A program made the position numbers and the translations under genes. The notes under the pieces are model-generated. The model ran no database searches, had not been told where the DNA came from, and saw only the letters and a program-made list of their open reading frames with translations. Of a DNA stretch of 64,000 nucleotides, positions 34,712 to 60,566 are shown piece by piece (the stretch's first letter is position 1; the number at the start of each line of letters is the position of its first letter). This DNA comes from Saprospiraceae bacterium (GTDB taxonomy: Bacteria; Bacteroidota; Bacteroidia; Chitinophagales; Saprospiraceae), in contig JABAQQ010000026.1 of the NCBI GenBank assembly GCA_019187225.1, positions 1-64,000 on the forward strand, in the 5' to 3' direction.

Positions 34712-34740
34712 TGAGTGGAAGCGACCGCCCGCAGGTACCC
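34712..34740 (-). promoter_or_regulatory. Bipartite motif GGGTACC-N13-TTCCACTCA, copy 1
   Basis: On the minus strand GGGTACC (34740-34734) is followed after 13 nt by TTCCACTCA (34720-34712), ending 54 nt before the ATG at 34657. It is back to back with copy 2. Read as GGGTACC-N16-CACTCA it has ECF sigma promoter geometry. No TAnnTTTG box is present between it and the gene. Confidence 0.7.
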
Positions 34741-34789
34741 ATCCCCGAACAGAAAAATTTTTGAAAGAGGGGATGGGTTTGAAACCGGC

Positions 34790-34818
34790 GGGTACTCCGG
34801 CGCTCCGGTTTCCACTTA
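34790..34818 (+). promoter_or_regulatory. Bipartite motif GGGTACT-N13-TTCCACTTA, copy 2
   Basis: GGGTACT (34790-34796), 13 nt, TTCCACTTA (34810-34818), ending 40 nt before the ATG at 34859. It drives the operon of a small secreted protein, a caspase-like protease and PorP/SprF, divergently from copy 1. Confidence 0.7.
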
Positions 34819-34858
34819 TGACAAACCGCCAAAAGGCATTTATATACGACCTTTCACC

Positions 34859-35467
34859 ATGAAAATGAATTATTCCGTCGCGTTGGTTTTTACCTTGTTT
34901 CTTGCAGGCTTGCCAGCGGGCAACCGGGCGGCCATGTTGCGCATGAGCGCGTCTGCGCAAAGGGGAGAAGGAGAAGTATTGTTGAAAAAAGGCGCCGAAG
35001 TGACCCTGATTCTGGAGGAGCCGGTTTCCTCCACCATGCCGCAGTCGGGCGGGGTGATCGGGTTGGGGGTGTATCTCGACGTGAAAGTGGACGATTACGT
35101 GGTGATCAATGCGGGGCGATATGCAGCGGGTAAAGCGTCGGCGCGCCGTTCCGGTTTTTTTGGCCGGCCCGGCAAAGTCTCTTTGCAGGCGCTCAATGTG
35201 CAGACGGTGGATGGCCAGACCATTCCCCTGGAAAGTCTGCCCCTTGCCGCGACCGGAAGCGACCGCTATGCGCTGGCCATCGTGGGCAGTATCGTTTTGC
35301 CGGCCGTCGGCGTGATCCTGGGTCCGGCCAATCCCTGGGCCTGGTGGCTGACAGCCGGTATCGGTTTCGGTTTCCTCGTAAAGGGGAAAGAGGTGGAAAT
35401 ACCGGTGCACACCAAATTCAGGGCTTTCGTAAAACGCGATGTATGGATAAAAGTAAGCAATAATTAA
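34859..35467 (+). CDS. Secreted/membrane beta-rich protein, long member of the GAxAxGxV family
   Basis: This 202-residue protein starts at the ATG at 34859 (MKMNYSVALVFTLFLAGLPA signal); an upstream ATG at 34715 would read through the promoter motif. The core LLKKGAEVTLILEEPVSS, then YLDVKVDDYVVINAGRYAAG, then VQTVDGQTIPLES is homologous to the short paralogues nearby. It also has a hydrophobic stretch (YALAIVGSIVLPAVGVILG, then WAWWLTAGIGFGFL) that may sit in the membrane, and a C-terminal strand VPVH-like segment FRAFVKRDVWIKV. It is the first gene of an apparent operon: the caspase-domain gene starts 3 nt after its stop and PorP/SprF follows. Function unknown. Confidence 0.7.
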   Translation: MKMNYSVALVFTLFLAGLPAGNRAAMLRMSASAQRGEGEVLLKKGAEVTLILEEPVSSTMPQSGGVIGLGVYLDVKVDDYVVINAGRYAAGKASARRSGFFGRPGKVSLQALNVQTVDGQTIPLESLPLAATGSDRYALAIVGSIVLPAVGVILGPANPWAWWLTAGIGFGFLVKGKEVEIPVHTKFRAFVKRDVWIKVSNN

Positions 35468-35470
35468 ATC

Positions 35471-38170
35471 ATGCGTAAGATTCTGTTTATCATAATTTTA
35501 TTGGGGTTTTTGCTGCCCATTGGCATTTTGCGGGCACAGGTCGTGCAGGTGGAATGGGACAGCCTTTATGCCGGCAAGTATTCCGAAAGCATCCATAGCG
35601 TTATCCGGCTGAAAGATGGCCGTCTGGCTGCCGTAGGGGAAGCCTACGTTCGGGGGCAGGGCAGCCAGGGGTTGTTCATGCTTTTCGACCCCTTCACCGG
35701 CAAGCGCCTGGCGCCGCCCAAATTGTTCGGCGGTTTTCTCGAAGACGTATTTCTGGATGTGGCGGAAGCGAAAGACGGCAATATTTACCTCGTGGGTGAG
35801 ACCAATTTCACTAAAAAACAGGCGGGGAAAGGCTGGCTCGTCCGGCTCGACGAAAACGGCGAAGAGTTGTCGAATGTTCCTTTTGACAAATACGGCGTAA
35901 CCCGCATCGAAAAAATCGTGTGGACTAAAAGCGGCAAAGGCCTGCTGGCGGCCAAAAGCGGCAGCCCGGATTACGAAGGGAGTTTGCTGGTGTTCCCGGT
36001 CGAAGGGAAGCGCATAGAAACGCCGGTGGCAGTAGGAGAGGGGGTCGTGCAGGATCTGGTGGCAATGGTACGGGACATGAAAAGGGGCGTTTGGCTGTGC
36101 GGCAATGCCCGCAAGTCCGACATTGGCCGCGAAGGCGATATCTGGGCGGTTCAACTCGACGACAAGGGCGGTCGCTTAGGATGTTGCGCCCCCGTTAAAG
36201 GGCACGATTTTAAACAGTTGCACGGCGCTTCGTCCACTTACGACGGCGGTTTGTTGCTGGCAGGGGAGATATGGAAAACTTCCGCAGGCGACAACGACGT
36301 GTGGATGATGGAAATCGGCGCCGGCGACATCGGGAAAGATACGGTGGTGTTTGGCAACGTCGGAGTGGAAGAATATGCATCGGTGCCTGTGGCTACGCCC
36401 GGCGGGCGCAAGTGGCTGATCGTGCACCGCAAATCGGGCGCTTCCGTACAGGTATACGACGGCGATCTGGGTAAAAAAAGCGTGTTCCCGCTGCCGAAGG
36501 AATCCAATTTCCGCGTGGCGCGCCTCTTTCAACTCCGGCCTAATTTGTACGTGCTGGCCGGTACCAGTTATGACCCCCTGCGCAAGGGCGACGCTGTGCG
36601 GCTTATCTGCCTGAGAGACGACGAGGTTCTGCCCGGCAAGGGCAAACCTGCCATGGCGTATGGTGATGTCGGTTTTTCCGAAACGGACGGCGACGGCGAC
36701 AACCGCCTCGGCGCCGGAGAACACGGTTACGTTTCATTTTTGCTCAAAAACACCGGCAATGCTCCCATTACCTCCGGAATTGTCAACGTGACGGTGGAAA
36801 ATCCGGTCAATGGCCTTGTGCTCAAACACAATCGCCAGGAGTTCAATTATATCGCCGCATTGGGCAGCGAATCTATCTCCATCGGGGTCCGGGGCGACAA
36901 GAATATCGCTGCCGGCGTGGCGACGCTGCGCATCCGGGTGGAAGTGAGCGGATTGGCGCCGCTCGATTTTACGGCGCCCGTTCCCTGCGGGAAAGTTGCG
37001 GGCAGCAAAACCACGGTGATCTACAACAAGCCCAACGCCAACCGGCAGGGCAATTCCAAATCGAACGAATACGAAACGGGCGATCCCAATTTTCCGGTCG
37101 AATTGCGCGTCATCTCGCCCAACGGCGATTTGAAAACCCTCGACGGAAAAACACTCCGGAATGGCGCCGTCGTGCGCGACCTGCCCAAAAACCGCCAGGA
37201 ACTGAGCGCGCCGAGCCGGGAAGTGGACCTCTTCGTATATACCTATACCTGTATGGTGCCCCTGGAAGATGGTCGCAATGTCATCTATTTCGAATTCGAC
37301 GATGGCCGCAGCGACTCCATCGTTGTGTTGTTCAACAAGGAAAAAAGGCCCAATCTCCACCTGCTGACCATCGGCGTACCGGACTCTGTCCTGCGTTTCC
37401 CTTCCAAGGACGCGCAGGATTTTGCCCGACTGATGCAGGAACAAGCCGGGAACGGCTTGTTTGAACGCATCTACGTGGATGCGCTGTACACCCCCGAAAA
37501 AACGACCCGCGACGCCATCGAAGGCGCGTTCAACGACCTGGTGAACCGCTACCTTTTTGAACAAAAGATCAAAAGCTACGACTACCTCGTCATTTTTATT
37601 TCCAGCCACGGCATGCGGCGCGACGACGGGCGTTTCTGCCTGCTGCCGACCGGATATGATGCCAACCGAAAGATCGCCACTACGGTGGATTACCGCGACC
37701 TGATCGAAAAATACCTGAACCTGATCCGCTGCAAAAAGATACTGTTTCTGGATGCCTGCCAAAGCGGCTCCGCCAAAACGCCGCCCGACCCCTACCTGAG
37801 CGAAGCCGTCCAACTGGCCAATTCTGTCGCGGAAGCGACGGTGACTTTTACTTCCTGCTCGCCCAACGAGCTGTCCTACGAATTGCCGAAAGAAGAGAAC
37901 GGCGCCTTTACCGAGGGCATCATTGAAGCCTTCGGCGGATCACCGGTAGAGATGCCGGAAGGGCAGTTACTAAAAGCCGATACCAAATCGTACGACAAAT
38001 TCGGCGCTCCCAAAGACGGCCCCGATGGCCTCATCTCGCTCGAAGAACTGGAGGATTTCCTGGCGGAGCGCGTACCGTATGTGGTAAAAAGCAAACAGGG
38101 ATATTCCCAGCATCCGGTTGTGAACGGCATTCAATCGGTTGAATATTTGCCCATTTTCAAACTAAAATGA
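35471..38170 (+). CDS. Secreted caspase-domain (peptidase C14) protein
   Basis: This 899-residue protein has a signal peptide (ILFIIILLGFLLPIGILRAQ). Residues ~25-390 form beta-propeller-like repeats with KDGNIYLVGETN-type strands. Residues ~395-510 resemble a CARDB-type beta domain (GEHGYVSFLLKNTGNAPI). Residues ~626-870 form a caspase-fold protease: LHLLTIGVPDS first strand, IFISSHGMRRDDG with catalytic His713, and ILFLDACQSGS with catalytic Cys763. Both catalytic residues are present, so activity is expected; metacaspase-like members of this clan cut after basic residues. It has no T9SS sorting domain, so it probably stays in the periplasm or is lipid-bilayer associated. It lies between a small secreted protein gene (3-nt gap) and PorP/SprF (7-nt gap), which suggests a role in maturing surface proteins or in an envelope response. 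That role is an inference. Confidence 0.85.
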   Translation: MRKILFIIILLGFLLPIGILRAQVVQVEWDSLYAGKYSESIHSVIRLKDGRLAAVGEAYVRGQGSQGLFMLFDPFTGKRLAPPKLFGGFLEDVFLDVAEAKDGNIYLVGETNFTKKQAGKGWLVRLDENGEELSNVPFDKYGVTRIEKIVWTKSGKGLLAAKSGSPDYEGSLLVFPVEGKRIETPVAVGEGVVQDLVAMVRDMKRGVWLCGNARKSDIGREGDIWAVQLDDKGGRLGCCAPVKGHDFKQLHGASSTYDGGLLLAGEIWKTSAGDNDVWMMEIGAGDIGKDTVVFGNVGVEEYASVPVATPGGRKWLIVHRKSGASVQVYDGDLGKKSVFPLPKESNFRVARLFQLRPNLYVLAGTSYDPLRKGDAVRLICLRDDEVLPGKGKPAMAYGDVGFSETDGDGDNRLGAGEHGYVSFLLKNTGNAPITSGIVNVTVENPVNGLVLKHNRQEFNYIAALGSESISIGVRGDKNIAAGVATLRIRVEVSGLAPLDFTAPVPCGKVAGSKTTVIYNKPNANRQGNSKSNEYETGDPNFPVELRVISPNGDLKTLDGKTLRNGAVVRDLPKNRQELSAPSREVDLFVYTYTCMVPLEDGRNVIYFEFDDGRSDSIVVLFNKEKRPNLHLLTIGVPDSVLRFPSKDAQDFARLMQEQAGNGLFERIYVDALYTPEKTTRDAIEGAFNDLVNRYLFEQKIKSYDYLVIFISSHGMRRDDGRFCLLPTGYDANRKIATTVDYRDLIEKYLNLIRCKKILFLDACQSGSAKTPPDPYLSEAVQLANSVAEATVTFTSCSPNELSYELPKEENGAFTEGIIEAFGGSPVEMPEGQLLKADTKSYDKFGAPKDGPDGLISLEELEDFLAERVPYVVKSKQGYSQHPVVNGIQSVEYLPIFKLK

Positions 38171-38177
38171 AAAAACA

Positions 38178-39179
38178 ATGCGAAAGATCACTTATTGCCA
38201 TTTCCTCGCCGGTTTCCTGTTGTGTGCGCTGGGCACGTCGGCCCAGCAAACGCCGCTGAGCATTTTCTACCGCTCCAACTGGCAGATGATCAATCCCGCC
38301 GCCATTGACCGCGGGCTTTACCTGAGCCGGCACCACAATACCTGGATGGTCAATTCCGCTTTCCGGCAACAGTGGATCGGCCTGGAAGGCGCTCCCCGGA
38401 CTTATTTCGTATCCTTCGAATATTGCCCGGAAACGGGTTCCACCCGCGCCGGCCATCGCATTGGCGGGACGGTGCTGCGCGACCAGACCGACGCGCTGTC
38501 GAACACCTCCCTGCACGCCAACTATTCCTTTTTCTTTCCCTTGCCCTACAAAAGAGGGCATATCATTCACTTAGGATTCACTCCCGGCATCGTCAGTTCC
38601 AATCTGGACCTGGAAAAACTGCGGCTGCGGGATCAAAACGACCCGGTGCCGTATTTGTACGAGAACCGGTTGTTTTTCGATTTCGCTTTCGGCGCCATGT
38701 ACCGGGTGCGGCAGGAGTTTTATCTGGGCTTGTCCGTGCCGCAATTTGTCAACATCAAACTGAATCAATTCGACCTCGATTCCGCTCGTGTTTTTCGCAA
38801 GCCGCACGTTTACCTGCACATCGGCGGTTTTATTCAGGCCGGCGAATGGGACTATGGCGACAAACTGCCCGACCAGCGCGAGTGGGTGATAGAACCCTCT
38901 GCCTGGGTCAGGTACGCGCCACGAGGCATATACAGTACTCTGATCTCCGGCTTTCCGCTTAGTCTGGACGCCAGCGTGCGCGTTTACCGCAAAAGGGCTT
39001 TGTGGGCGGGCATCGGCTACGGCACCAACGGAATGGCCAGCGTCGAGTTCGGCCTCAGCCATATGATGAGTAAGGAAAACAAAATCCAGGCCGGTATCGC
39101 CTACAGCGTACCGGCAGCCAAAAAGTATCTGAACCTGGGGCACAGCATCGAATTGACAGCCTCTTACTGGTGGTGGTAA
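38178..39179 (+). CDS. PorP/SprF-family T9SS outer membrane protein
   Basis: This 333-residue protein has a signal peptide (FLAGFLLCALGTSAQ) and the family's N-terminal signature: QQTPLSIFYRSNWQMINPAA, then NSAFRQQWIGLEGAPRTYF. It is followed by amphipathic beta strands and ends in an aromatic strand (TASYWWW-like, ending YWWW). SprF in Flavobacterium is needed to secrete the type B cargo SprB, and related proteins serve individual cargo. It is the only PorP/SprF in this window, while four type B cargo genes lie within 22 kb, so it may serve one or more of them. It is the third gene of the operon that starts at 34859 and is thus probably under the bipartite motif at 34790-34818. It ends 10 nt before the convergent CHAT gene ends. 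Confidence 0.88.
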   Translation: MRKITYCHFLAGFLLCALGTSAQQTPLSIFYRSNWQMINPAAIDRGLYLSRHHNTWMVNSAFRQQWIGLEGAPRTYFVSFEYCPETGSTRAGHRIGGTVLRDQTDALSNTSLHANYSFFFPLPYKRGHIIHLGFTPGIVSSNLDLEKLRLRDQNDPVPYLYENRLFFDFAFGAMYRVRQEFYLGLSVPQFVNIKLNQFDLDSARVFRKPHVYLHIGGFIQAGEWDYGDKLPDQREWVIEPSAWVRYAPRGIYSTLISGFPLSLDASVRVYRKRALWAGIGYGTNGMASVEFGLSHMMSKENKIQAGIAYSVPAAKKYLNLGHSIELTASYWWW

Positions 39180-39189
39180 AGGTGGCGTC

Positions 39190-42100
39190 TCAAACCTTCC
39201 TCCTTCGGCGGGCGAAGTAAATCATTGTGCAACAAAGTATTATGGCGATTCCGCCCGATACCAGCCATGTTTTTATCCCCTCTTCGAAAATGGCCCGGTT
39301 GTCGCCGACAGAGACGAAACCGGCCCAGTAATAGGGGTGCGCCTCCAGTCCGGCGGCGCGATCGAGATAGGCACGTTGGGCATGCGCCAAGGCGCTTGAT
39401 TTGGAATTTCCTGCCTTTAAATGCTGCAAAAATGTTTTTATGATGAACGGACTTTTGGAGTCGGTCACATCCCACAAAGAGGCCGTCAGTGCCCTTGCGC
39501 CTGCGATTTGAAAGGCGCGCGATATGCTCATCAACCCCTCCCCCCGGTACAATTTGCCCGCTGCTGTCTGGCAGGCGCTGAGGATAACGAGGTCGGCGGA
39601 CAACGCGAGGTTGTAAATTTCGGCGACATACAAAGCGTTCTCCACGCTGTCGGGATATTGGGTGAACGCCACACAGGAGCGGTCAGGCGTCCGGTCGTTC
39701 AACAGGCCGTGCGTGGATAGCAACAGAATGCGGTATTGCCCTGCAACTTTTGTAAAACGCTCTTCCGTAGCCTCATCACCGCTCCAATTCGCTCCCTCGA
39801 GCAATTTGGCGGCGGCAACCGCTTCTTCAACATTGTATTTCAAAGGTCTTAAACCCAGGCTATTGCGTTTAAAATCCGGCGCGACCGCCAGCAGGTCGGA
39901 TTCCGGTGGGCGCGGGGCGTGCTGTTGCAGGGTATTCCACATACCGGCCGATTGCAGGTATTGAATGTCGTATTCCCGGCACAGATACGGATGTTGTTTG
40001 AAGCGGTGCGCCGGAGCTGTAGCAGGCCGGGTCAACAAAGCATCGAAAGGAACGTACCACAACAAGCCGTCAGGAACCACCAGCAGTTCCTGGCTCAGCC
40101 AGGGTTTCGCCGGGCCTGCAAGGGTTCGGAACAAGTCCGCGCCAATGCTGACGAAATCTTCATAATCAGACGCTTGTTGCCCAAGATCGGGCTCCGAACG
40201 GCACAGCTGGAAAAACCGCTTGATCTGATCGTTCAAAGTATCGGAAAGCGGGATACGGAGCGTCCGGAACAAATCGCGCCGCAACACGAACAATACCAAG
40301 CACGTGTCGCCCCAGTGATAGACCAGCATGGTTTGTCCGGGCGACAGCGTTTGTTGAAGTCTTTCAAGGGAAAACGTGTCCGAAACCCGCCCCGAACCGG
40401 CCCCGGTGCCCAGTTGAATGCGAAGCAATTGCCTTTCCGATTCCGCGCGGCGAATGGAGTCGTCCAGCGCTGCGATCGAAGGCGTGTCGTACTGGCCGGG
40501 TAAAAGTCCGTTGGTCAGGTCGAAACGGCGTTTTTGAAAATACTCGAGGCGGTAACTGCTCTGCCGTTCGGCGGCAAACAATCCGGGCTCATGCATCATT
40601 AAGTTTTGCAACTCCCAACTTCCGGTCAATTGTTGCAAAAAATGGCTTTTCGACGCTTCCGATGTCGCGAATGCCTGCCGTTCGTCGCCCAAAGCGAGCT
40701 GCGCTTCTACGGCCAGGTCGTATGCCGCGAAAAATTCCTGCTTCAATTCGGTCCCGGCGTCCTGTCCCCGTAATCTTGATTGCAGGGACTCGAACAAGCG
40801 GATGGCAATTTGCGCGTACTGCAAGGAGCGGCGCCAGTCGTCCTGCCTGCCCGAAGCCTGCGCCATGACATTCCACGTTTCGCTCATCGCGGTGTTGACG
40901 CTGACGGCTTCCCGGGGGTAGGGCGTCCATCCTGTTTCATCGGCTTTCAAACCGAGCGTTTCGGCGGCTTTTTGGTAAAAATAAAGCGCTTTTTCTGTGT
41001 TTTTTTGCTGAAAATGCCATTCCCCCCATTGAAAATACAGCGCGAAGGCGAAGGGCGGAGCGACGTGATGCACAGATTGCTGGGCCTGTTGCAGGCAAAT
41101 AGCCGCCGAATCCGCCTGCTCCCCTTTCATATAACATTCGCTCAGTTTGATCCGGCATGCCAAACGGCCTGTATGCCCGCCGGGTATCGCTTTGAAAATC
41201 GCGAGCGCCGTTCGCAGAAAAAAATTCGCCGGATACAACTCTCCCTGGTCGAGGTAGCATGTCCCGAGGTTTTGATACACCCCAGCCAGTGCCGGCCAGG
41301 GAATATTGTCGTACCCTGCCTGCGGATAGGAATTCTGCGCTTCCCTGAACCAGCGCAGCGCGGTCGGCAGATCGTTCCGGTAGCGCGCCGCCAACCCCAG
41401 GCCGTTAAAAATACTTCCCCGCGCCAAAGGGTCGCCGGGGAAACAACTCAGGGCAGCGTTCAGATACATTTCCGCCAGGGCATAATCTCCCAGATCCAGC
41501 AGGCCCAGACCCAGATTGTGCAGGCAATCGCCTTTTACCCGAAGTGGCGTGGAGAAGTCCTGGTCGCACAGGGCCGCCGCCTTGCGCCAGGTAGCGACTG
41601 CCAGGTCAGTCCGTCCTTGCCGGGAGTAAGTGGAAGCCAGTACATTGAGCACAGGGGCCCGGTCGCCGGGCGATACGGAGGTGGAAAGCGCCTGCGCGCC
41701 ACCGGCGCGTTGGAGGAGTGCGATGGCCGTGTCGTAACGCTGTTGTTCGCTGTAAAAAGATGCCAGGTTGAACAAACCCTCCACGACTTGCGGCGCTTCC
41801 GGAGGATAATATTGCGCGGCAACGGACAACGCGGACTGCAGGTATTGCTCTGCCTGCGGCAAGCGCCCTTCCGACCAATAACACTGCGCCAGGCTGTTGT
41901 ACACGGTTCCGATGTCGGCGTGCCCTTGCGGGTGCAGTTTTTTCAAGATGCGCAAACTGTTTCGGAACATGGATGCCGCCTCGGTAATACGCCCCGACTC
42001 CAGCAGGCAATTGCCGAGATGCAGGTAACTGCTGGCCGTTTCTTCATGCAGCCGGCCGCGGACTTGCAGTCGCAGCGTCAATGCTTTCCGGTGGGCGGCG

Positions 42101-42360
42101 ATGGCTTCGTCCGTGCGGCCCAGTTGCCGCAACGCGCGGCCATGGATGGACCAGGCCCGCGCCTGCAAAACCGGGCGGATGTGCAGCGGGCGTTCCGACA
42201 GAAGGCGCCCGCAACTGTCCGCAACGGCCGTCCATTGTTTCGCTTCCAGCATGCGCTGCCAGGCGTCGAGCCGCTGTTCGGCAGCGACATCACCGCGATG
42301 TTGCGCAGGCAGCAATGCGACGACCATACAGCCCAGCATGACTCCAAAAAGTGATTTCAT
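39190..42360 (-). CDS. CHAT-domain protease with TPR array and C-terminal membrane anchor
   Basis: This 1,056-residue protein starts at the ATG at 42360 with a signal segment (MKSLFGVMLGCMVVALLPAQ); an in-frame ATG at 42393 adds eleven residues and is less likely. Residues ~60-600 are TPR helix pairs (EMYLNAALSCFPGDP, LAGVYQNLGTCYLDQGELYP). Residues ~700-1000 are a CHAT domain, a caspase-clan protease fold: LLLSTHGLLN with His884 and ILSACQTAAG with Cys930, both intact. Near the C-terminus WLVSGGIAIILCCTMIYFA followed by RRRRKV is a single membrane anchor with a basic cytoplasmic tail. CHAT-TPR proteins act as proteases switched on by partner binding, for example in stress and defence systems. 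This one faces the periplasm if the signal is used. It is divergent from the sigma-factor gene 184 nt away, which suggests a functional link but does not prove one. Confidence 0.87.
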   Translation of the reverse strand: MKSLFGVMLGCMVVALLPAQHRGDVAAEQRLDAWQRMLEAKQWTAVADSCGRLLSERPLHIRPVLQARAWSIHGRALRQLGRTDEAIAAHRKALTLRLQVRGRLHEETASSYLHLGNCLLESGRITEAASMFRNSLRILKKLHPQGHADIGTVYNSLAQCYWSEGRLPQAEQYLQSALSVAAQYYPPEAPQVVEGLFNLASFYSEQQRYDTAIALLQRAGGAQALSTSVSPGDRAPVLNVLASTYSRQGRTDLAVATWRKAAALCDQDFSTPLRVKGDCLHNLGLGLLDLGDYALAEMYLNAALSCFPGDPLARGSIFNGLGLAARYRNDLPTALRWFREAQNSYPQAGYDNIPWPALAGVYQNLGTCYLDQGELYPANFFLRTALAIFKAIPGGHTGRLACRIKLSECYMKGEQADSAAICLQQAQQSVHHVAPPFAFALYFQWGEWHFQQKNTEKALYFYQKAAETLGLKADETGWTPYPREAVSVNTAMSETWNVMAQASGRQDDWRRSLQYAQIAIRLFESLQSRLRGQDAGTELKQEFFAAYDLAVEAQLALGDERQAFATSEASKSHFLQQLTGSWELQNLMMHEPGLFAAERQSSYRLEYFQKRRFDLTNGLLPGQYDTPSIAALDDSIRRAESERQLLRIQLGTGAGSGRVSDTFSLERLQQTLSPGQTMLVYHWGDTCLVLFVLRRDLFRTLRIPLSDTLNDQIKRFFQLCRSEPDLGQQASDYEDFVSIGADLFRTLAGPAKPWLSQELLVVPDGLLWYVPFDALLTRPATAPAHRFKQHPYLCREYDIQYLQSAGMWNTLQQHAPRPPESDLLAVAPDFKRNSLGLRPLKYNVEEAVAAAKLLEGANWSGDEATEERFTKVAGQYRILLLSTHGLLNDRTPDRSCVAFTQYPDSVENALYVAEIYNLALSADLVILSACQTAAGKLYRGEGLMSISRAFQIAGARALTASLWDVTDSKSPFIIKTFLQHLKAGNSKSSALAHAQRAYLDRAAGLEAHPYYWAGFVSVGDNRAIFEEGIKTWLVSGGIAIILCCTMIYFARRRRKV

Positions 42361-42512
42361 AAAGCCGGCATGAAAATAAAGGAGTTCATACATTTATACC
42401 GCATTAATAAGCGAAATGAAAATATAACTTACTGAAAATGAGATTAATAGTTGAACGAAACCTTAATATCCCTAATAATCTTTACCTTCCTGATTTATTT
42501 TCTGCACAAAAC

Positions 42513-42541
42513 GGGTACCCTTTCCACTCAATTTCCACTCA
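42513..42541 (+). promoter_or_regulatory. Bipartite motif GGGTACC-N13-TTCCACTCA, copy 3, at the sigma gene
   Basis: GGGTACC (42513-42519), 13 nt, TTCCACTCA (42533-42541). An extra TTCCACTCA at 42522-42530 makes an 11-bp tandem duplication. The motif ends only 3 nt before the ATG at 42545, so transcription from it would give a leaderless mRNA or use a later start. Confidence 0.65.
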
Positions 42542-42544
42542 CTA

Positions 42545-43171
42545 ATGAAAGTCGTCCAACTCAATCCGACTGAATCCGCCGGTTCCATTCTCAGTACCGA
42601 TCCCCGGCAGCGCAATCAAGCCTTCAAAGCGCTCTACATGAGTCCCATTGTGGCTGGAAAGGTGCGCGAATGGGCAAAAATCTATAATCTGAGCGGCAAA
42701 ACGCCGGACGATGTGGTGCAGGAGGGCGTCATTTTGCTGGACGAACTCGCGCGCAATGGCCGTTTTCGCGGAGAGAGCAAAGCGGAAACCTTTCTGCTGG
42801 GCATCTGCAAAAACCTGATCCGCGACAGCGCCAAAAAAGTGCGTCGCGTGGTGTTCAAAGAATCGCTCAGCGACGCCGACCTGAGTTCGGAGGACAGCAT
42901 CGCCGACCACATGGTCCTGGAGGAACTGGAAGACGCCGGCCAACGGCGCGACCGGGCCCTGCAGGAAGCCCTCGGCCAACTCACGGACAAATGCCGCGAC
43001 GCCCTGAAACTATACTATTTCGAAAACAAAAGCATGGCCGATGTGGCCGCTTCGCGCGGACTGGCCAACCCCGATCAGGCCAAAAAAGCGGTGTTCCGCT
43101 GCCGCGAATCGCTGCGCGAACTCATCCACCACAATCCCTATCTGCACAACATCTTAAATCCGAAGTCATGA
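42545..43171 (+). CDS. ECF-type sigma-70 family RNA polymerase sigma factor
   Basis: This 208-residue protein has the two-domain layout of ECF sigma factors. Region 2 covers about residues 25-105 (NQAFKALYMSPIV, DDVVQEGVILLDEL with the core-binding 2.2 helix, and ETFLLGICKNLIRD). Region 4 covers about 140-195 (LTDKCRDALKLYYFENKSMA, then a helix-turn-helix ending VFRCRESL). The stop overlaps the start of the next gene by ATGA, a classical sigma/anti-sigma arrangement. The bipartite motif 3 nt upstream also lies in front of other operons here, which suggests self-activation. Because the motif is so close, the true start may be later (for example the ATG at 42638), although residues before it look like genuine region 2. 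Its target promoters are inferred, not shown. Confidence 0.88.
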   Translation: MKVVQLNPTESAGSILSTDPRQRNQAFKALYMSPIVAGKVREWAKIYNLSGKTPDDVVQEGVILLDELARNGRFRGESKAETFLLGICKNLIRDSAKKVRRVVFKESLSDADLSSEDSIADHMVLEELEDAGQRRDRALQEALGQLTDKCRDALKLYYFENKSMADVAASRGLANPDQAKKAVFRCRESLRELIHHNPYLHNILNPKS

Positions 43172-43947
43172 ACATCTCCGATACGAATTTTGAACGCATA
43201 GAAGCATATCTCTTCGACCGGCTCTCACCGGAAGATAAACAGGCCTTCGAACGCGAAATGCGGGAAAACCCCGAACTGGCCCGTGCCGTGGAAGTGCACC
43301 AAATGGAGCACGAAGCGATGGAACTGCTGCTCCGGCAGGAGATGCAGGACAACCTCGCCTCCTGGAAGCAGGAAAAAGAAACCCTGGCCGCCGATACGGG
43401 AACGGGCGCCAAAAAGATCTCCATGGGCTTCAACCGCCGCCTCTTGTTCCGCTTGGCAGCGGCAGCCAGCGTCTTGCTGGTCATCGGTTTCTTTTCCCGG
43501 CAGTTTTTTTCCGGCACGGACAACGCCGGACTGGCCTCAGCCTATTTTGAAGACAGTGCTGCCGGTGTGCGCGCCGGCGACAGCGGCGACATGCCGGCGG
43601 AACTGGCGCCTATGCTCGAACGTATGGCGGAAAAAGACTACCGCGGGGCGCTGGCTGCAGCGCCTGCCTCGCCGGATGTCAATATCCGGGAAAAAACGGC
43701 CCTGCTCGAGGGAGAATGCTACTTTTATCTTCAGGATTTCCCGAATGCCATCGCTGCTTTTACTGCCTTGCTCGACACCGCTCCCTCACCTGCCGTTCAG
43801 GAAAAGGCCCAATGGCTGCTCCTGCTGACTTACGTAGCCGGAGGAAAACACCCGCAGGAAAGGGACGGTTTGTTCGACCGGATATTAAAGGATGAAGGGC
43901 ATGGGTACTGGAAGCAGGTGAAGGAGTTGAAGGGGAAGGTGAAATAA
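43168..43947 (+). CDS. Putative anti-sigma factor with one membrane segment and periplasmic TPR-like domain
   Basis: This 259-residue protein starts at the ATG at 43168, overlapping the sigma stop by four bases. The N-terminal ~90 residues are helical and acidic, with a motif typical of anti-sigma N-termini (FERIEAYLFDRLSPEDKQAF, then ENPELA). Residues ~92-112 form one membrane segment (LAAAASVLLVIGFFS). The C-terminal periplasmic part has TPR-like helices (LLEGECYFYLQDFPNAIAAF). The layout fits a membrane anti-sigma factor that holds the upstream sigma and senses an envelope signal through its TPR part. No zinc-binding ZAS motif is obvious. Direct binding to the sigma is an inference from order and overlap. 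Confidence 0.75.
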   Translation: MNISDTNFERIEAYLFDRLSPEDKQAFEREMRENPELARAVEVHQMEHEAMELLLRQEMQDNLASWKQEKETLAADTGTGAKKISMGFNRRLLFRLAAAASVLLVIGFFSRQFFSGTDNAGLASAYFEDSAAGVRAGDSGDMPAELAPMLERMAEKDYRGALAAAPASPDVNIREKTALLEGECYFYLQDFPNAIAAFTALLDTAPSPAVQEKAQWLLLLTYVAGGKHPQERDGLFDRILKDEGHGYWKQVKELKGKVK

Positions 43948-44139: not shown

Positions 44140-44255
44140 GGATGACGTCTCGCCTTGTTTTTGAAATGCCATCCGCTCCTGCGTCGAGGATGAAACCTCA
44201 AAAACCGGCTTCTCAAATCCGAAATTGCTGATTGTTCGACCTTAAATCTCAACAT

Positions 44256-49185: not shown

Positions 49186-49214
49186 GGGTACCAACGATAA
49201 CAGATGTCCACTAA
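49186..49214 (+). promoter_or_regulatory. Bipartite motif GGGTACC-N13-GTCCACTAA, copy 4
   Basis: GGGTACC (49186-49192), 13 nt, GTCCACTAA (49206-49214), ending 37 nt before the ATG at 49252. The second half differs from the best copies at two positions. It begins 4 nt after the stop of the type B gene. Confidence 0.55.
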
Positions 49215-49251
49215 TAGCAACATTCACACTTTACTTTAAACATCTGTTATC

Positions 49252-50466
49252 ATGAAAAAACTAAGCGTTTATTTATTGCTTTCCGGATTGCTTTGGGTTG
49301 GATGCCGCAAAGATGAACCGGAACCCGAGCTCGAGTTTCTCACTCCTGAAGAAGACGAATTTCTTGCCAGCCAACCCGATGCGACAGGGTTTAACGATTT
49401 CACGGTCATTTTGCCGAACGGCCTCACTGTTGCAGAGTTTCTGGCACAAACGGACTCGCTCAACATGGCAAGTGAGGACAGGGGAGACCCTTATGACAAT
49501 CTGGGACCCCAGGATGCGCGGAATCGCCTGATCCTCCATTTTGCACAATTGGCTTGCCGCCTGGTGGACAGAGATCAGTTCAAATACCCTGATAATGATC
49601 CCCCCCTGTATGGACTCGCGTATTCTTCTGGAAGCAGAGACCATACGGTCCGTCAAAAGCCACCGGCCGACAATTGCACGGAACAGATTTACGGTCTGGA
49701 TTGCTCGGGTCTGATCTATCAACTGTTCCAGAATGCCGGGATAGATATCGGTTTGCCAACCTGGGCAGACCAACAACGCGATCCTTCCTTCCTGGAACCC
49801 CGTATCAAGTCGCAGATCCCGTCACTTGACAAAGTGAAAGTCGAGGAACTGGGCCAGATCGGTCAGGACAAATTTGAAACCGGCGATATCATTTACTGGA
49901 TACGGGAAGGAGAAAAGGCCGCTTTTCACATCGGTATGGTGCTTCGTTGCCAGGATGGCAGACTGGCAATTTACCAATCCAATGGCGTACCCAATGAATG
50001 TGAGAAAAACCGGGGAATCAAACGCGGGCCCAGGATCATGGAACTGGGCTCCATTCAAACATTCTTTCATCCGCAAAAGACAAGCTACGGGATCGTCAGG
50101 ATCAACGCGGAGATTTCCGGGAAATGGGACTTTCACTTTCGGTGTTCCGGCCAATCCAACGACTTCATCGTTCATCCGCTGGATTTTCCGACGGACAATA
50201 AAAATACTTTCACCCTCGAACGCGACTTTGAGGACAACGACGGTTCGCCCAACCACGCGATCTTTGGCTTTGAATACGACAATACGACCAACGTTCTTTC
50301 CTGTTCCATGACCATTACCGACGGCTGGATACCGGGTTGCGAGCGGAAAGATCGCTTTTCGGTGAAGCTCGAACGCGACGATACCGGTTATATCGCCTGC
50401 GAAAACGAATACTTCCAAGGCTGCTGGGGGTGTATCGAGGAAGTTAAACTGGTCAATAAGGAGTGA
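49252..50466 (+). CDS. Lipoprotein with NlpC/P60-like cysteine peptidase/amidase domain
   Basis: This 404-residue protein has a signal peptide with a lipobox-like LLWVGC ending at Cys18, so it is probably an outer-membrane or periplasmic lipoprotein. The N-terminal ~140 residues are acidic and unassigned. YGLDCSGLIYQLFQNAGI carries Cys151, and AAFHIGMVL carries His226. This is the C...H.G order of the NlpC/P60 superfamily, whose members cut peptide bonds in cell-wall stem peptides. Residues ~270-404 form a beta domain with six cysteines (CSGQSND, GCERKD, CENEYFQGCWGC), possibly a sensor or inhibitor module. It is a single gene with its own bipartite motif upstream and a strong terminator downstream. 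Wall hydrolysis is an inference from the catalytic pattern. Confidence 0.75.
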   Translation: MKKLSVYLLLSGLLWVGCRKDEPEPELEFLTPEEDEFLASQPDATGFNDFTVILPNGLTVAEFLAQTDSLNMASEDRGDPYDNLGPQDARNRLILHFAQLACRLVDRDQFKYPDNDPPLYGLAYSSGSRDHTVRQKPPADNCTEQIYGLDCSGLIYQLFQNAGIDIGLPTWADQQRDPSFLEPRIKSQIPSLDKVKVEELGQIGQDKFETGDIIYWIREGEKAAFHIGMVLRCQDGRLAIYQSNGVPNECEKNRGIKRGPRIMELGSIQTFFHPQKTSYGIVRINAEISGKWDFHFRCSGQSNDFIVHPLDFPTDNKNTFTLERDFEDNDGSPNHAIFGFEYDNTTNVLSCSMTITDGWIPGCERKDRFSVKLERDDTGYIACENEYFQGCWGCIEEVKLVNKE

Positions 50467-50731: not shown

Positions 50732-50760
50732 GGGTACCCGGTGAACCCTCTTTCCACTCA
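50732..50760 (+). promoter_or_regulatory. Bipartite motif GGGTACC-N13-TTCCACTCA, copy 5
   Basis: GGGTACC (50732-50738), 13 nt, TTCCACTCA (50752-50760), 73 nt before the ATG at 50834. An AT-rich block (tttcaaaaattttt, 50698-50711) lies just upstream; a similar block lies upstream of copy 1. Confidence 0.7.
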
Positions 50761-50833
50761 TGGACAAATGCGCATCCAAACAGCGCATCCATCGAAAGGA
50801 AAAAAATCATTCACCGTAAAAAAAGTACCCATC

Positions 50834-51316
50834 ATGTTCAAACAACTTTTCTTCCGCTCCTGCTTCGCTGCCGCTTCCATTTTCGCCGGCTCCAATCTTT
50901 TCGCCACTGCTTCCATCCAACCGCCCGTGGCTTTCGCGATGGACCAACTCGTCACCCTGACTGCCGGCACGGTCGTCAACGTAACGCTCAACGAGCCCAT
51001 CATCGCCGAAGAAATATCAGTCGGCAACGCGCTCGACTTCATGGTGCGCTCCAACGTGACCGTCAACGGTAAGGTCGTCATCGCAGCCGGCGCCCACGCA
51101 ACCGGCTGGGTTAAAAGCGTGAAAAAAGCCTGCGACGGCAAGTGCTCCGAAATCACGATTACCGTCGAAAACGCCATGGCCGTAGACGGCCAGATGGTTA
51201 ACCTGCGCAGCATCCCCCACATCGTGAAAGCCCCCTGCTGCGACGGCACCGCCAAAGCCGACATCGGCTCCAACCTCAGCGCCCGTGTACTCAACGACAT
51301 CAAGATCAACGCATGA
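50834..51316 (+). CDS. Small secreted GAxAxGxV-family protein, cassette 1 gene A
   Basis: This 160-residue protein starts at the ATG at 50834 (MFKQLFFRSCFAAASIFAGS signal); an in-frame GTG at 50741 lies inside the promoter motif. The mature part reads LTAGTVVNVTLNEPIIAEEI, then GNALDFMVRSNVTVNGKVVI, AAGAHATGWVKSV, then CDGKCSE and APCCDGTA, and ends SARVLNDIKINA. The four cysteines (CDGKC and PCC) are shared with the copy at 60632 but not with the gene B type. It is the first gene of a two-gene operon with 51414-51893. The all-beta pattern suggests a secreted binding or structural module. Function unknown. Confidence 0.72.
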   Translation: MFKQLFFRSCFAAASIFAGSNLFATASIQPPVAFAMDQLVTLTAGTVVNVTLNEPIIAEEISVGNALDFMVRSNVTVNGKVVIAAGAHATGWVKSVKKACDGKCSEITITVENAMAVDGQMVNLRSIPHIVKAPCCDGTAKADIGSNLSARVLNDIKINA

Positions 51317-51917: not shown

Positions 51918-51951
51918 CCCCGGAGCGTTTGACGGCGCTTCGGGGTTTTTT
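51918..51951 (+). terminator. Terminator of cassette 1
   Basis: Stem ccccggagcg/cgcttcgggg (one G-T wobble) with an 8-nt loop, followed by six T. It is nearly the same sequence as the terminator of cassette 2 at 61725. Confidence 0.85.
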
Positions 51952-51966
51952 GGCATGGAGAACATG

Positions 51967-53106
51967 TTAACCCGGCTCCAATAAAAAATCGAGGTAGTTT
52001 TCCCGGTTGATACAGGTGAATGCGGCTTCGGGGTAATGTTCGGACCATGATTTGGGGGCAGCAGTCGTTTTAGAGGAGAACTTGAATTCGAAGCCGGCCA
52101 ATTGGCCCATGCCTTCTTCCACATAATCCAGTTCAGCGCCGGTGTAGGTGCGCCAGAAATATGGTTTCAATAAAGCGCCTGTGTAGGCGTTGCGCTTGCG
52201 GCGTTCTGCTACCAGAAAATTTTCCCAAAGCGCGCCGGTGTCAATGCGGCGGTCGAGCGGGTTGAAGTTGTCGATCAGGGCATTGCGGATACCGAGGTCG
52301 TAGAAAAAGATTTTATCCTTTTTTACGATCTCTTTCCGCAAATTTCGGCTGTACCCAGTAAGCCTGAACACGACAAATGCCTTTTCGAGCAAGTCGATGT
52401 AAGTGGATACCGTGTCCTTGCTCATTTGCAGGTTGTTGCCCAATTCGTTGAGCGAGACCTCGGAGCCGGCTTGAAAGGCCAGTAAACGCAGGAGTCGCTG
52501 TAGTTTGTCGGAATGTTTGATAGAAGCCACCTCCAAAATATCCTTGTACAAGTATGCGGACGTCAACTCCGTCAGGTGCCGGATTTTGTCGGCTTGATTG
52601 GTCATCGTCAGCACTTCCGGGTAAGCGCCATACAAGAGCAACGATTCCAGCCGGTCGTTTAACTCGAAGCGGTTGTAAAGTTGATGCAGTTCTGAAAGGG
52701 AAATAGGGAATAAAGTGTAAGTCCAGGTACGCCCGGTAAGCGGTTCCCGGGTGCGGTTGGCAAGTTCGAACGACGACGAGCCCGTAGCCACGATTTTTAA
52801 TCCCGGCAACTCATCGTGAAGGATTTTAAGGTTGATTCCGATCTCCGGTATACGTTGGGCTTCGTCGATAAAAAGCAGGTCGTATCCCTCAACGAGGCCG
52901 CGCATTTTGAGCAGATCGCGGCTCGACAGGATGTCGATATACTTGGACTGATCGGCATTGATTTCAAGGTGCCGGGCAGGTAAATCGGCCAGGATACTGC
53001 GGATCAGCGTGGTTTTTCCTACCTGACGCGGGCCGAAGAGCAGGATGATCTTGTTGGAGTGCAACAGTTTTTCGCGGATGTCGGTAGCCTGGATACGTGG
53101 AATCAT
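51967..53106 (-). CDS. AAA ATPase with DUF4143 domain
   Basis: This 379-residue protein starts at the ATG at 53106; an in-frame TTG at 53124 lies inside an operator-like repeat. Residues ~15-150 form an AAA_14-type ATPase: Walker A GPRQVGKT (25-32), Walker B LLFIDE (77-82), and sensor-like IVATGSSSFEL. Residues ~190-350 match DUF4143, with a winged-helix part (VSLNELGNNLQMSKDTVSTY) and the DLGIRNALIDNF and YFWRTYTGAELDYV segments of the PD-(D/E)XK-like fold. Such proteins are widespread, mobile and often laterally acquired. Their role is unclear, although a nuclease or toxin-like function has been proposed. It is monocistronic and unrelated in theme to its secreted neighbours. Confidence 0.88.
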   Translation of the reverse strand: MIPRIQATDIREKLLHSNKIILLFGPRQVGKTTLIRSILADLPARHLEINADQSKYIDILSSRDLLKMRGLVEGYDLLFIDEAQRIPEIGINLKILHDELPGLKIVATGSSSFELANRTREPLTGRTWTYTLFPISLSELHQLYNRFELNDRLESLLLYGAYPEVLTMTNQADKIRHLTELTSAYLYKDILEVASIKHSDKLQRLLRLLAFQAGSEVSLNELGNNLQMSKDTVSTYIDLLEKAFVVFRLTGYSRNLRKEIVKKDKIFFYDLGIRNALIDNFNPLDRRIDTGALWENFLVAERRKRNAYTGALLKPYFWRTYTGAELDYVEEGMGQLAGFEFKFSSKTTAAPKSWSEHYPEAAFTCINRENYLDFLLEPG

Positions 53107-53115
53107 ATTTGAGTC

Positions 53116-53174
53116 ATTAGCCAAATTTGCGCAAAATTAGCAGGTATATTAGCCAGATTTGCGTAAATTTAGCA
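53116..53174. promoter_or_regulatory. Two direct 27-bp operator-like repeats upstream of the ATPase
   Basis: attagccaaatttgcgcaaa (continuing attagca, 53116-53142) and its copy at 53148-53174 differ at three of 27 positions, with a 32-bp period (about three helical turns). Each centre is palindromic (tttgcgcaaa). Being 10-68 nt upstream of the ATG, they could be operators through which the gene's own winged helix, or another regulator, acts. Confidence 0.6.
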
Positions 53175-53197
53175 AATTAACGATCAATTAACCGTTT

Positions 53198-53228
53198 ACC
53201 CGAAGTATATATTTCGCTTCGGGTTTTT
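53198..53228 (+). terminator. Orphan terminator-like hairpin
   Basis: Stem acccgaag/cttcgggt with an 11-nt loop and a T tract on the plus strand. No plus-strand gene lies directly upstream. The remaining 53236-53422 contains only a weak inverted repeat (ggctcatgttcc with ggaatatgagcc) and no convincing gene. Confidence 0.5.
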
Positions 53229-53422
53229 ATTTTTGCCATAGAATCAACATTTTTAGAACTATTTTTTGGCTCATGTTCCTAAAATGCTGAACATCGTATC
53301 TAACTTTCTGAAAGTTCTCAGCGCGTTGGGAATATGAGCCTATTTTTTCAATAACCATTACTTGTGTACTTTTTCCCGTGCTCATCAACCCGTATAATTT
53401 TATCTGAAGCCAATATCCAGCC

Positions 53423-59400: not shown

Positions 59401-60508
59401 AAGCATCTCCGTGAATGAAGCCGGCACGTATACCGTGACCGTCACCGATACGAACGGCTGCACCGGCGTCGCTTCGAAAACCATTACCAGCATGGCTGCA
59501 CCCAACCCCGGCGCAGGCAGTAACAGCCCTGTTTGCGCTGGAGAGCAGTTAAAATTGTTTGCGGGCAGCAGCGCCGGTTGGGTCTACAACTGGACTGGCC
59601 CCGGCGGATTCGTTTCCACCGCACAGAACCCGGTACGCAATTCTATGTCCGCTGATATGGCCGGTCTGTATATCGTGACGGTTACAGACGGGAACAACTG
59701 CACCGGCACCGCTTCCGTCGCAGTACACGTGGCGCCGAACTACTTTTTGGAAAACGACACGGTGGTCTGTACCGGCAATACCCTGCTGAACGGCAAGCCC
59801 GTAACCGTTGACACTACGATCCAGCAAATCTTTACCACATCGCTCGGGTGCGATAGCATCAGTATTTTGGCTGTTGATGTGGTCGAGGCGCAAGCATATA
59901 TCGCCGTGACAGACACCTTCTTCTGCCCGCCGGGACAAGGTTCAATCATACATGAGTTCGAACCCGTCACCAACGACAATACCGGCGGGAATTCCTGGAA
60001 AATCGGCATTGAAAAAGACCCGGTTGCCGGTATCGCAAGCGTCACGGACGACAGCCTGCGACTTCTGTATCAGCTGCAAGACCTGTCGTTCCGCGGGCTG
60101 GATACTATCGTGTACCGGCTGTGCGATGCCAATTGCGACGGCCCCTGCTCCATTGCCCGCATTTACATTGTGGTGCAGGACGACATAAAAAAAGTGGCCG
60201 ACGACCTCCCCAATGGGTTCACACCGAATGGCGACGGCATCAACGATTTTTTCAATCCTTTACAGAATTATCTGGATCAAAATTATATCGTCCCGACCGG
60301 CCGGGCCTCGCTCACCATTATCAATCGCTGGGGCGAGATCGTTTACCAGGCCAATCCCTACCAGTACTTCAACGAACTGGAAGGCGGCTGGGACGGGCGC
60401 AACGGCAACGGCAGTGCTGTGATTCCGGGAACCTACTATTATATGCTTCGGCTGGACGTGGGCGAGACCGTTGTGGTCAAAGGAGCGGTGCAGGTTTTGA
60501 CAGACTGA
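53423..60508 (+). CDS. Giant T9SS type B protein with degenerate metalloprotease and two seven-blade arrays
   Basis: This 2,361-residue protein has a signal peptide ending near TSLWG. Residues ~200-400 align with the reprolysin-like metalloproteases of Bacteroidota, but where those have HEIGH..(6)..HD this one has QAIGYNLGAFYD (346-357): all three His and the catalytic Glu are lost. Residues ~492-895 are seven LQWQK.LGGS...GDVSGNHG blades. After a fibronectin-like linker, ~1003-1416 are seven IQWQNTIGGS...SGDKTENS blades. Residues ~1426-2106 are SprB-like/PKD modules (W.GPNGF, PGTYTVTV). The end is a type B domain (TPNGDGINDFF, IINRWGEIVY). It probably acts as a non-catalytic surface adhesin. 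The second array (about 56.4-57.7 kb) is more AT-rich than its flanks. It lies between the two small-secreted cassettes. Confidence 0.85.
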   Translation: MPAFTYSRTSFLKICVFVSLFNATSLWGNIHPEPALRSFKCKIINPASFNLKDKLSAYTIFQLDIQALNDSIRAAQEEALIELSVGRHHWILALRPNDILAPGYNLVIEENGIFNTINRPRPNAYLGYEIQDGGKAGLVVNANFMEGFVIQQNSMYYIEPLTHFYKDAPVYYFVVHTGHYELNEDLENSTKNDIVSGHVASGAACGSLDLEIAIASDKSMFTKYGSVLAVENHNIAVLNNAQALFSGVFTQDINFEIVTQYVVVGSDPWGVPNDMNDYLSKFKTWANSGNLGVPYDLAGLWTNMNALAPAGTGSLGYLGSLCTTNKYHLVKDNSNDPSMLRYNLTQAIGYNLGAFYDANCPPDNYLMCPSVSSPPNTWSPGSISAINAFVAGKIGVGCLSGMPAVGINNLSANGLSGTFTLAGGQPQIDGSNYTSVSMTLQSNPGVTSALMTAPFTHGETVSFTCPQAGDYDLVVTDNNGCGETKIVAVFTPPCLTWQKALGGSSNDGAESVLPTPDGGYIMAGSTFSTNGDVSGNHGNEDVWIVKLNVAGKMQWQKTLGGTLAERAHNIQLTGDGGYIIAGYSDSNDGDVSGNQGGRDVWVVKLSATGDLQWQKTYGGSSYDAASTIQATADGGFIVAGASSSSDGDLTENQGNLDGWVFKINASGQLQWQEALGGSSQDYLHSPKPTADGGYILAGFTNSNGGDVFGNHGGGDIWVVKLTSNGALEWQKCLGGSAFDDSQSLVVAADGGYIIAGSSASNNGDVSGNHGGEDAWIVKLDATGALQWQKCLGGTQEERVRQITATPDGGYIVAGHSFSDDGDVSGNHGLKDAWIFKIDQNGALQWQKSLGGDAADYATAVQPTADNGYIVAGVTASVNGDVSGNHGMEDAWVVKLGDLPACVTLTTPLPTSTDVPVNTSIQWQKGSACTDGYRLNLGTTPGGSELLNDQVVLDTFFQPAQSLPAGTLIYVRIIPYNDMGVAGGCQEFTFVTAGGSGVDIAPPCIQWQNTIGGDYYDWLSSIQQTTDGGYILGGTSYSGLSGDKTESYAGYWVIKLNSTGDIQWQNTVGGSGIDQLYSIQQTTDGGYILGGFSNSNISGDKTENSQGGDDCWVVKLDPAGIIQWQNTIGGSSDDRLLLHSFQQTADNGYIIGSTSDSHISGDKSENSEGDWDYWVVKLNSAGTIQWQNTIGGSDGDEVSAIQQTADGGYILGGRSGSNISGDKTENSEGSWDYWVVKLDSAGTIQWQNTIGGSFEDGITSIQLTPDGGYLLGGYSHSNLSGDKTENSEGERDYWVVKLNPVGNVLWQKTIGGNSDDFLIDIQLTNDGGYLLGGWSRSNISGDKTENSQGGYDYWIVKLDAVGNIRWQKTIGGNGNDYIYSIQQTADSGFFFGGYSYSNLSGDKTENGKGWTDYWVIKLSPENPQIPTPSIMPAMPVFCVGDSVSLDAGGGFTTYQWSNNATTPGITVNMPGLYAVTVTSADGCTATDTVEVLQNNTLPVVSITTPNGAQITCAQSSVLLQAFASGTNTYTWTGPNGFTFSGPQPAVSNPGTYTVTVANSSTGCSDTASVVISLNNDPPGANATGGVITCTNPVILVQGNSLTSGVTYSWSGPNGFMFNGQNSPVNTAGNYTLTVTDPATGCTSSATANVMNDNVPPSATVSAPSGSQITCTNAFVALQVPAVGGYNYSWSGGLGNNPAAVAVLPGTYTITVTNPATGCSATGSATVTEDKTIPNIAATGGELTCAQNFVILQGSSSTPGVTYLWTGPNGFAVAQSNPPVNVPGTYTFTVSNPENGCTATATATVGEDKTPPGISATGGQLSCQTLTVELSGDSGTPGATMSWTGPGGFVFNGPNPVVNLPGAYTLTVTNPLNGCTAVQQVTVDPPLVLTPVVSGSTKLCPGSTLTLTAESGYTVYEWSTGDTAAQITVNQPGAYTVTVTDANQCTGTKTVSVTPAQPPNPVITGPPSLCIGSSIMLDAGAGYTGYNWSTGQNTQSISVNEAGTYTVTVTDTNGCTGVASKTITSMAAPNPGAGSNSPVCAGEQLKLFAGSSAGWVYNWTGPGGFVSTAQNPVRNSMSADMAGLYIVTVTDGNNCTGTASVAVHVAPNYFLENDTVVCTGNTLLNGKPVTVDTTIQQIFTTSLGCDSISILAVDVVEAQAYIAVTDTFFCPPGQGSIIHEFEPVTNDNTGGNSWKIGIEKDPVAGIASVTDDSLRLLYQLQDLSFRGLDTIVYRLCDANCDGPCSIARIYIVVQDDIKKVADDLPNGFTPNGDGINDFFNPLQNYLDQNYIVPTGRASLTIINRWGEIVYQANPYQYFNELEGGWDGRNGNGSAVIPGTYYYMLRLDVGETVVVKGAVQVLTD

Positions 60509-60537
60509 ATATTTTGAAAAAATAATTTGCAAAGAGC

Positions 60538-60566
60538 GGGTACCTCCGGCAAGGCTTTTCCACTTA
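60538..60566 (+). promoter_or_regulatory. Bipartite motif GGGTACC-N13-TTCCACTTA, copy 6
   Basis: GGGTACC (60538-60544), 13 nt, TTCCACTTA (60558-60566), 65 nt before the ATG at 60632 and 30 nt after the giant gene's stop. Confidence 0.7.

Follow-up and report, generated by a model that had tools for sequence, protein, structure and literature searches.

A two-box element before an extracytoplasmic function sigma gene and its neighbours points to a local, autoregulated promoter set in a Saprospiraceae genome

What reads the two short DNA boxes that recur, at one fixed distance, between genes of a Saprospiraceae bacterium? The window, meaning the whole stretch of DNA that was analysed (contig JABAQQ010000026.1, positions 1 to 64,000; all coordinates refer to it unless a locus is named), contains six sites that match GGGTACC-N13-TTCCACTYA with zero to two mismatches, at 34740-34712 on the minus strand and from 34790, 42513, 49186, 50732 and 60538 on the plus strand. 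A motif scan thus recovered all six copies, with exactly 13 nt between the halves, that a first-pass annotation of this DNA had described. The sequence evidence makes it very probable that they act as promoters for RNA polymerase containing the extracytoplasmic function (ECF) sigma factor encoded at 42545-43171, which would be autoregulated, held by an anti-sigma-like protein and would drive five more local transcription units. The consensus form of the six copies is GGGTACY-N13-KTCCACTHA, and the individual sites are as follows (SSP, small secreted protein).

34712-34740, minus strand: site A, GGGTACC-N13-TTCCACTCA; putative promoter of a leftward secreted-protein operon
34790-34818, plus strand: site B, GGGTACT-N13-TTCCACTTA; putative promoter of an SSP-caspase-PorP operon
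42513-42541, plus strand: site C, GGGTACC-N13-TTCCACTCA; putative sigma autopromoter, with CAC ending 6 nt 5' of the ATG
49186-49214, plus strand: site D, GGGTACC-N13-GTCCACTAA; before an NlpC/P60 lipoprotein gene
50732-50760, plus strand: site E, GGGTACC-N13-TTCCACTCA; before the gene for SSP E
60538-60566, plus strand: site F, GGGTACC-N13-TTCCACTTA; before the gene for SSP F

A seventh match, at 24670 with three mismatches, is consistent with chance (shuffle mean 0.51, largest 3). According to our gene list, all six sites are intergenic, even though coding sequence takes up 93% of positions 33709-62921, and they face the next start, as the first-pass annotation had claimed; the translation starts used for this placement were 34657 (minus strand), 34859, 42545, 49252, 50834 and 60632, and some sites are overlapped by longer alternative open reading frames (ORFs) with GTG starts. 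The 13-nt spacers are unrelated in sequence, with a mean of 3.5 of 13 letters identical, so none of the six sites is a recent duplicate of another. No exact TAnnTTTG box occurs within 150 nt upstream of any of them, but one-mismatch forms are present before sites B, C and D. Site C also contains an extra CCACTCA a few nucleotides past its GGGTACC, at the wrong spacing.

The gene behind site C and the gene that follows it encode the two proteins on which the proposed control would depend.

42545-43171, plus strand: ECF sigma factor, 208 aa; TIGR02937 at 57.3 bits (cut-off 42.9)
43168-43947, plus strand: anti-sigma-like protein; N-terminal part, one predicted transmembrane segment (residues 92-110, by hydropathy) and a C-terminal part with weak TPR matches

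Pfam regions 2 and 4 of the sigma factor were detected just under their cut-off, and its closest solved chains are sigma factors, including SigH and SigW (best E value 3e-6 at a limit of 0.1; none at 1e-6). The anti-sigma-like gene overlaps the sigma gene by 4 nt and its product matches the anti-sigma model NF052375 at 7.9e-7, below the cut-off of that model. An adjacent overlapping gene, an N-terminal domain and one predicted transmembrane helix together give the layout of a class I membrane anti-sigma factor. By the sequence tests made, the pair is an ECF/anti-sigma module.

The first-pass annotation had taken CACTYA as the -10 half, with transcription starting 5-10 nt after it. At site C, CACTYA ends 3 nt 5' of the sigma ATG, so that such a start would fall within the sigma gene; this assignment did not survive, and judged from the sequences the conserved -10 core is CAC, 17 nt past GGGTAC, rather than CACTYA. 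Of 32 homologues of the sigma factor, our own among them, 15 have an exact GGGTAC-N17-CAC upstream; five differ from it by one letter, six by two (four of these being near-identical homologues) and six by at least three. Of the 15 exact elements, 12 have exactly 6 nt between CAC and the sigma ATG, and three have 10 nt. The nearer sigma proteins have similar N termini (MKVVQL, MKTVQM, MKIVTM and MKVVTL); these shared first residues indicate that the ATG used, 6 nt past CAC, is very likely the true start. When part of the fetched loci was scanned, leaving out the sigma loci L040 and L045, the exact element was found 4-14 nt 5' of 15 of 13,940 ATGs: 12 sigma starts, one out-of-frame ATG beside a sigma start, one in the leader of SSP E and one that appears to be chance. 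The same scan with spacers of 14, 15, 16, 18, 19 and 20 nt gave 0, 1, 0, 1, 0 and 0, respectively. Most of these loci were chosen for their sigma homologues, so the scan informs on the position of the element rather than on its frequency. Among the 32 homologues, L115 (in G520) carries GGGAAC-N17-CAC at 13 nt from the ATG and L116 the exact element at 6 nt from it.

Two related sigma homologues (L106 and L111, in G619 and G489) have another upstream stretch in common, CGGTT.C ... GGTAC.TACTA, which adjoins the ATG. At the locus of a more distant sigma factor (L127, in G645), further GGGTAC-N17-CAC sites precede neighbouring genes at 9799 (plus), 9369 (minus) and 6424 (minus), and from this locus local regulons may be general in the sigma family.

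The genes behind the other five sites were identified by profile matches and the gene list, which bore out the earlier description of them as small secreted proteins, a caspase-PorP/SprF operon and an NlpC/P60 lipoprotein, alongside the sigma factor. T9SS denotes the type IX secretion system.

34202-34657, minus strand: SSP A; begins 54 nt past site A; no Pfam match
33709-34194, minus strand: second SSP-like gene of operon A
25946-33634, minus strand: 2562-aa giant protein whose C-terminal end is of the TPNGDGLND type (recognised by eye); 74 nt past the second SSP-like gene
34859-35467, plus strand: SSP B, 202 aa
35471-38170, plus strand: caspase-like protein, 899 aa; NF047832 caspase, E value 6e-15, below the cut-off of the model
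38178-39179, plus strand: PorP/SprF-family T9SS membrane protein; PF11751 at 8.6e-35, TIGR03519 above cut-off
39190-42393, minus strand: TPR-CHAT protein; CHAT at 1e-52; divergent from the sigma gene and without its own motif
49252-50466, plus strand: NlpC/P60 lipoprotein; PF00877 at 3.1e-6, above cut-off
50834-51316, plus strand: SSP E, 160 aa
51414-51893, plus strand: second SSP of operon E
60632-61096, plus strand: SSP F; 81% identity to SSP E
61221-61700, plus strand: second SSP of operon F

The SSP target genes have no Pfam match. SSP A is 83% identical over 125 aa to the product of a gene behind the equivalent site in the relative G466, and the gene for the giant protein is probably the last of operon A. 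An ATPase-like gene (51967-53124, minus strand) lies reversed between two SSP pairs. The SSP leaders contain a small hairpin close after the predicted start (50769-50787 and 60574-60593 in the window; also in L087, L089, L090 and L093), which by eye is GCGC-loop-GCGC in most of the six leaders and GCGA-loop-TCGC in that of site F.

Is the arrangement kept where the sigma factor is kept? In the samples of genomes searched, and with our own genome counted each time, the sigma factor is present in three of 42 genus genomes, in five of 396 in an order sample at E <= 1e-25 and in 29 of 398 family genomes by profile at E <= 1e-35, most of these last being more distant. Comparison of eleven window proteins with eleven relatives' loci by tblastn showed that the order SSP-caspase-PorP-CHAT(reverse)-sigma-anti-sigma is retained in G466 and G020, and UBA7688 has the genes from caspase through anti-sigma on a short contig. 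The module genes of G383 are split into two divergent blocks; those of G276 run SSP(reverse)-caspase, a long gene, and then PorP-CHAT(reverse)-sigma-anti-sigma. G466 and G276 retain a divergent pair of sites like A and B, of which G383 shows one clear side.

The relatives' loci, about 295 kb in all (about 10 kb counted twice), were scanned with a weight matrix built solely from the six window sites; some of the relatives' sites had been known by pattern beforehand, but none was included in the matrix. At the 13-nt spacing it gave 23 matches scoring 13 bits or more, 11 of which reached at least 16, whereas each of 16 other spacings (5 to 21) gave only 1-10 and 0-2, respectively. Of the 23 matches, 14 directly precede an orthologue of a sigma, SSP, SSP-like or caspase gene of the module; the other nine are about the number expected from background. 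Among the 11 stronger matches this holds for nine, which precede the sigma gene in G466, UBA7688 and G383, SSP genes in G466 (four) and G020, and the caspase gene in G276. Equivalents of site A lie before SSP genes (L087:2468, L093:13369 and L040:4325, all minus strand), those of site B before SSP B orthologues (L087:2516 and L033:78) or a caspase orthologue (L093:13396), and those of site E at L087:18526 and L089:8543. Altogether, 20 relatives' sites in seven genomes were collected by matrix and by eye, the weak ones being those of the G020 sigma gene, G045b (14-nt spacing) and G067 (GGGAAC). TAC replaces CAC at -10 in all four G276 sites; because this TAC is shared by single sites in G466 and G383, a within-genome change of the -10 box in G276 is suggestive only. 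Since the fixed spacing and the place of the sites are kept in relatives, and a sigma/anti-sigma-like pair is present, an ECF promoter set with an autoregulated 42545 sigma factor is strongly supported by sequence.

To define how far this set extends, we searched whole genomes. The 7.18-Mb genome has six exact copies of GGGTACY-N13-KTCCACTHA, all in the window and within 26 kb around the sigma gene; the 99 other family genomes have none (two for the reversed-pattern control). With up to two mismatches, nine matches lie outside the window in our own genome against 24 for the reversed pattern, and a looser pattern finds 14 places against 12. Because near-copies elsewhere in the genome show no excess over the reversed pattern, a genome-wide regulon was rejected; in this genome the regulon consists of a local cluster plus one distal intergenic candidate. 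The first-pass annotation had proposed a single envelope/secretion regulon; its ECF promoter set is upheld, but as a local cluster rather than a genome-wide one. In the comparison of intergenic with coding hits that it had suggested, all six exact copies were intergenic and 14 of 16 inspected matches outside the window (13 from our genome and three from other genomes; L048-L050 not included) lay inside ORFs of at least 100 aa. The two exceptions are L047, a repeated sequence, and C24:14445-14473 on the minus strand (locus L052), an intergenic copy of GGGTACC-N16-CACCAA located 50 nt upstream of the gene for a lipoprotein-like protein of 443 aa and a possible distal target. The looser-pattern matches outside the window number eight: those on C2, C23 and C59 are within ORFs, four on C12 and C13 are near-identical, and that at C24:14445 is intergenic. 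The four near-identical matches (G000, loci L047-L050), of the form GGGTACGT...ACACCAA, are not promoter copies and probably represent a repeated element, perhaps a mobile one.

Across the 42 genus genomes, the strict pattern GGGTAC-N16-CCACTHA, which misses the module sites of G383, has 12 matches against 10 for its reverse: six are in the window; G466 contributes two, of which one lies in its sigma cluster and the other precedes SSP genes on a different contig; and the remaining four are internal to ORFs (our own C2, G383 C11, G340 and G458). As a spacing control, with N15 in place of N16 before CCACT, none of the window sites was found and the 42 genomes gave eight matches against 12 reversed. 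G462 and G456, which have SSP-like genes without such a sigma factor, contain no match to the strict pattern.

These results suggest how the system may work. GGGTAC would be the -35 element and CAC, 17 nt on, the -10 core. The sigma gene would stand under its own promoter, giving positive autoregulation as in SigW-type systems, and the membrane anti-sigma-like protein would, from its protein type, hold the sigma factor until a cell-envelope signal frees it. From the motif and its placement we infer binding by the sigma factor and the direction of control: free sigma factor would turn on five more local transcription units, with small secreted proteins, the caspase-like protein and its PorP/SprF partner, and the NlpC/P60 lipoprotein as targets and the giant type-B-like surface protein as a further possible one.

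The position of the autopromoter has a consequence for translation. Given SigW-like geometry and CAC 6 nt from the ATG, transcription would start at or very near the AUG, and the sigma mRNA made from its own promoter is probably leaderless. In the sigma homologues of UBA7688 and G276, exact TAnnTTTG boxes precede the motif by 41 and 49 nt; before the window's own sigma gene none was found within 150 nt upstream of site C. Basal sigma expression may come from upstream housekeeping promoters. At site D, promoter positions 49196-49207 are complementary to the pre-ATG stretch 49240-49251 (12 bp, perfect), and at site E positions 50732-50745 are complementary to 50810-50830 (6+7 bp); this pairing could mask read-through transcripts at both. 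It exceeded shuffles in four of 16 sites, namely D, E and two E-related sites before SSP genes in G466, while nothing unusual was seen in the remaining 12; masking as a general feature was rejected. We give roughly even chances to the combined proposal that the fixed position of CAC makes the sigma mRNA leaderless when the autopromoter is active and leaves a motif-bearing leader on basal transcripts, so that the mode of translation would be switched as well, and that at sites D and E the start codon would be masked in read-through transcripts, leaving translation to those driven by the sigma factor.

Several observations weigh against a promoter set of this kind. Neither the CHAT gene nor the large genes at 44232, 48216 and 53423 have a site; six of the 32 sigma homologues lack the element, including G045a at 47% identity; and two of the 11 strong matrix matches (L091:11216 and L092:1872, the latter on the minus strand) precede no recognised gene. 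The G383 module sites are weaker (13.5-17.4 bits) and its one strict match is ORF-internal elsewhere, while a G466 site before an SSP pair (G466:C295:8515-8543, minus strand; L089) lies off the sigma contig, so the set is not always one cluster. Known ECF -35 elements commonly contain AAC, although this is not a strict rule; the window has GGGTAC instead, and GGGAAC was noted only in G067 and G520 (L115).

One alternative is that the motif is an operator, bound by a different regulator whose gene lies within the module or close to it, with the true promoters elsewhere. A CACTYA only 3 nt from the sigma ATG is an unusual place for a promoter, and besides the upstream TAnnTTTG boxes in UBA7688 and G276, two exact boxes precede the plus-strand member of the divergent pair in G466. 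We nevertheless regard an operator as unlikely, as the two boxes have ECF-like geometry, every window site faces the next gene without an exact TAnnTTTG upstream, and the motif recurs before sigma homologues in many genera. The sites might also be ECF promoters read by a different ECF sigma factor of the same genome, which encodes ten further homologues at E <= 1e-5. That seems quite improbable: it is the homologues of the 42545 sigma factor that carry the element upstream in many genera, and none of the matches outside the window from the mismatch-tolerant and looser searches of this genome lies near any of the ten homologue genes. Genus genomes without the sigma factor give two strict matches, both ORF-internal, although this is a weak test because the pattern also misses the G383 sites. 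Finally, the SSP genes are clearly duplicated, as the similarity of SSP E and F attests, and the motif could have spread with them as a mobile or duplicated repeat without a regulatory role; but the divergence of the spacers largely refutes this, sites also precede the sigma and lipoprotein genes, and the strict spacing is kept in relatives, which leaves this explanation with hardly any likelihood.

Recognition of the six sites by the 42545 sigma factor would provide a testable promoter code for a Bacteroidota ECF sigma family. It marks a sigma/anti-sigma/surface-secretion module whose sigma factor occurs in three of 42 genus genomes, predicts that the autoregulated sigma mRNA lacks a leader in a phylum where few mRNAs do, and offers a candidate orthogonal sigma/promoter pair. 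A description of the motif was not found in the literature searched, which mostly excluded subscription papers.

How does this system compare with known ones? Like the SigW promoter of Bacillus subtilis, TGAAAC-N16,17-CGTA (PMC2375139), the element has two short boxes with the same spacing and an ECF sigma factor; it differs in that the boxes are GGGTAC and (C/A)CAC, the sites form one cluster in this genome and the sigma ATG lies 6 nt from the -10 core. In Porphyromonas gingivalis, the ECF sigma factor SigP controls T9SS genes with PorXY (PMC4800418), and PorA has been proposed to pass a surface signal to SigP (PMC7712824). An ECF sigma factor controlling T9SS genes would be common to both systems. 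SigP, however, acts with PorX, whereas here an anti-sigma-like gene adjoins the sigma gene and the target is an accessory PorP/caspase cluster; the suggested SigP motif, C(T)AAA(G/C/T)A(T)A(C)T(A/G)A (PMC4800418), differs by inspection from the one described here. ECF control of T9SS genes has also been inferred in Flavobacterium psychrophilum as SM6, where, as proposed here, Bacteroidota ECF-type promoters precede T9SS genes and a sigma/anti-sigma pair; SM6 has a CGT -10 box and serves T9SS components, in contrast to CAC and a local accessory cluster here, and leaderless mRNAs make up 5.5% in that species (PMC9723704). EcfO of Bacteroides fragilis is a Bacteroidota ECF sigma factor with an identified motif, and according to the same 2020 paper no ECF motif was yet known for B. 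thetaiotaomicron (PMC7366714). PorP/SprF-like proteins bind type B C-terminal domain proteins (PMC9143113); a PorP/SprF-like gene is likewise clustered here with type-B-like giant proteins, but in company with a caspase-like gene, SSP genes and a putative ECF switch. The type of system is thus ordinary ECF/anti-sigma autoregulation, and what is new to us lies in the promoter and in the constant position of the sigma AUG.

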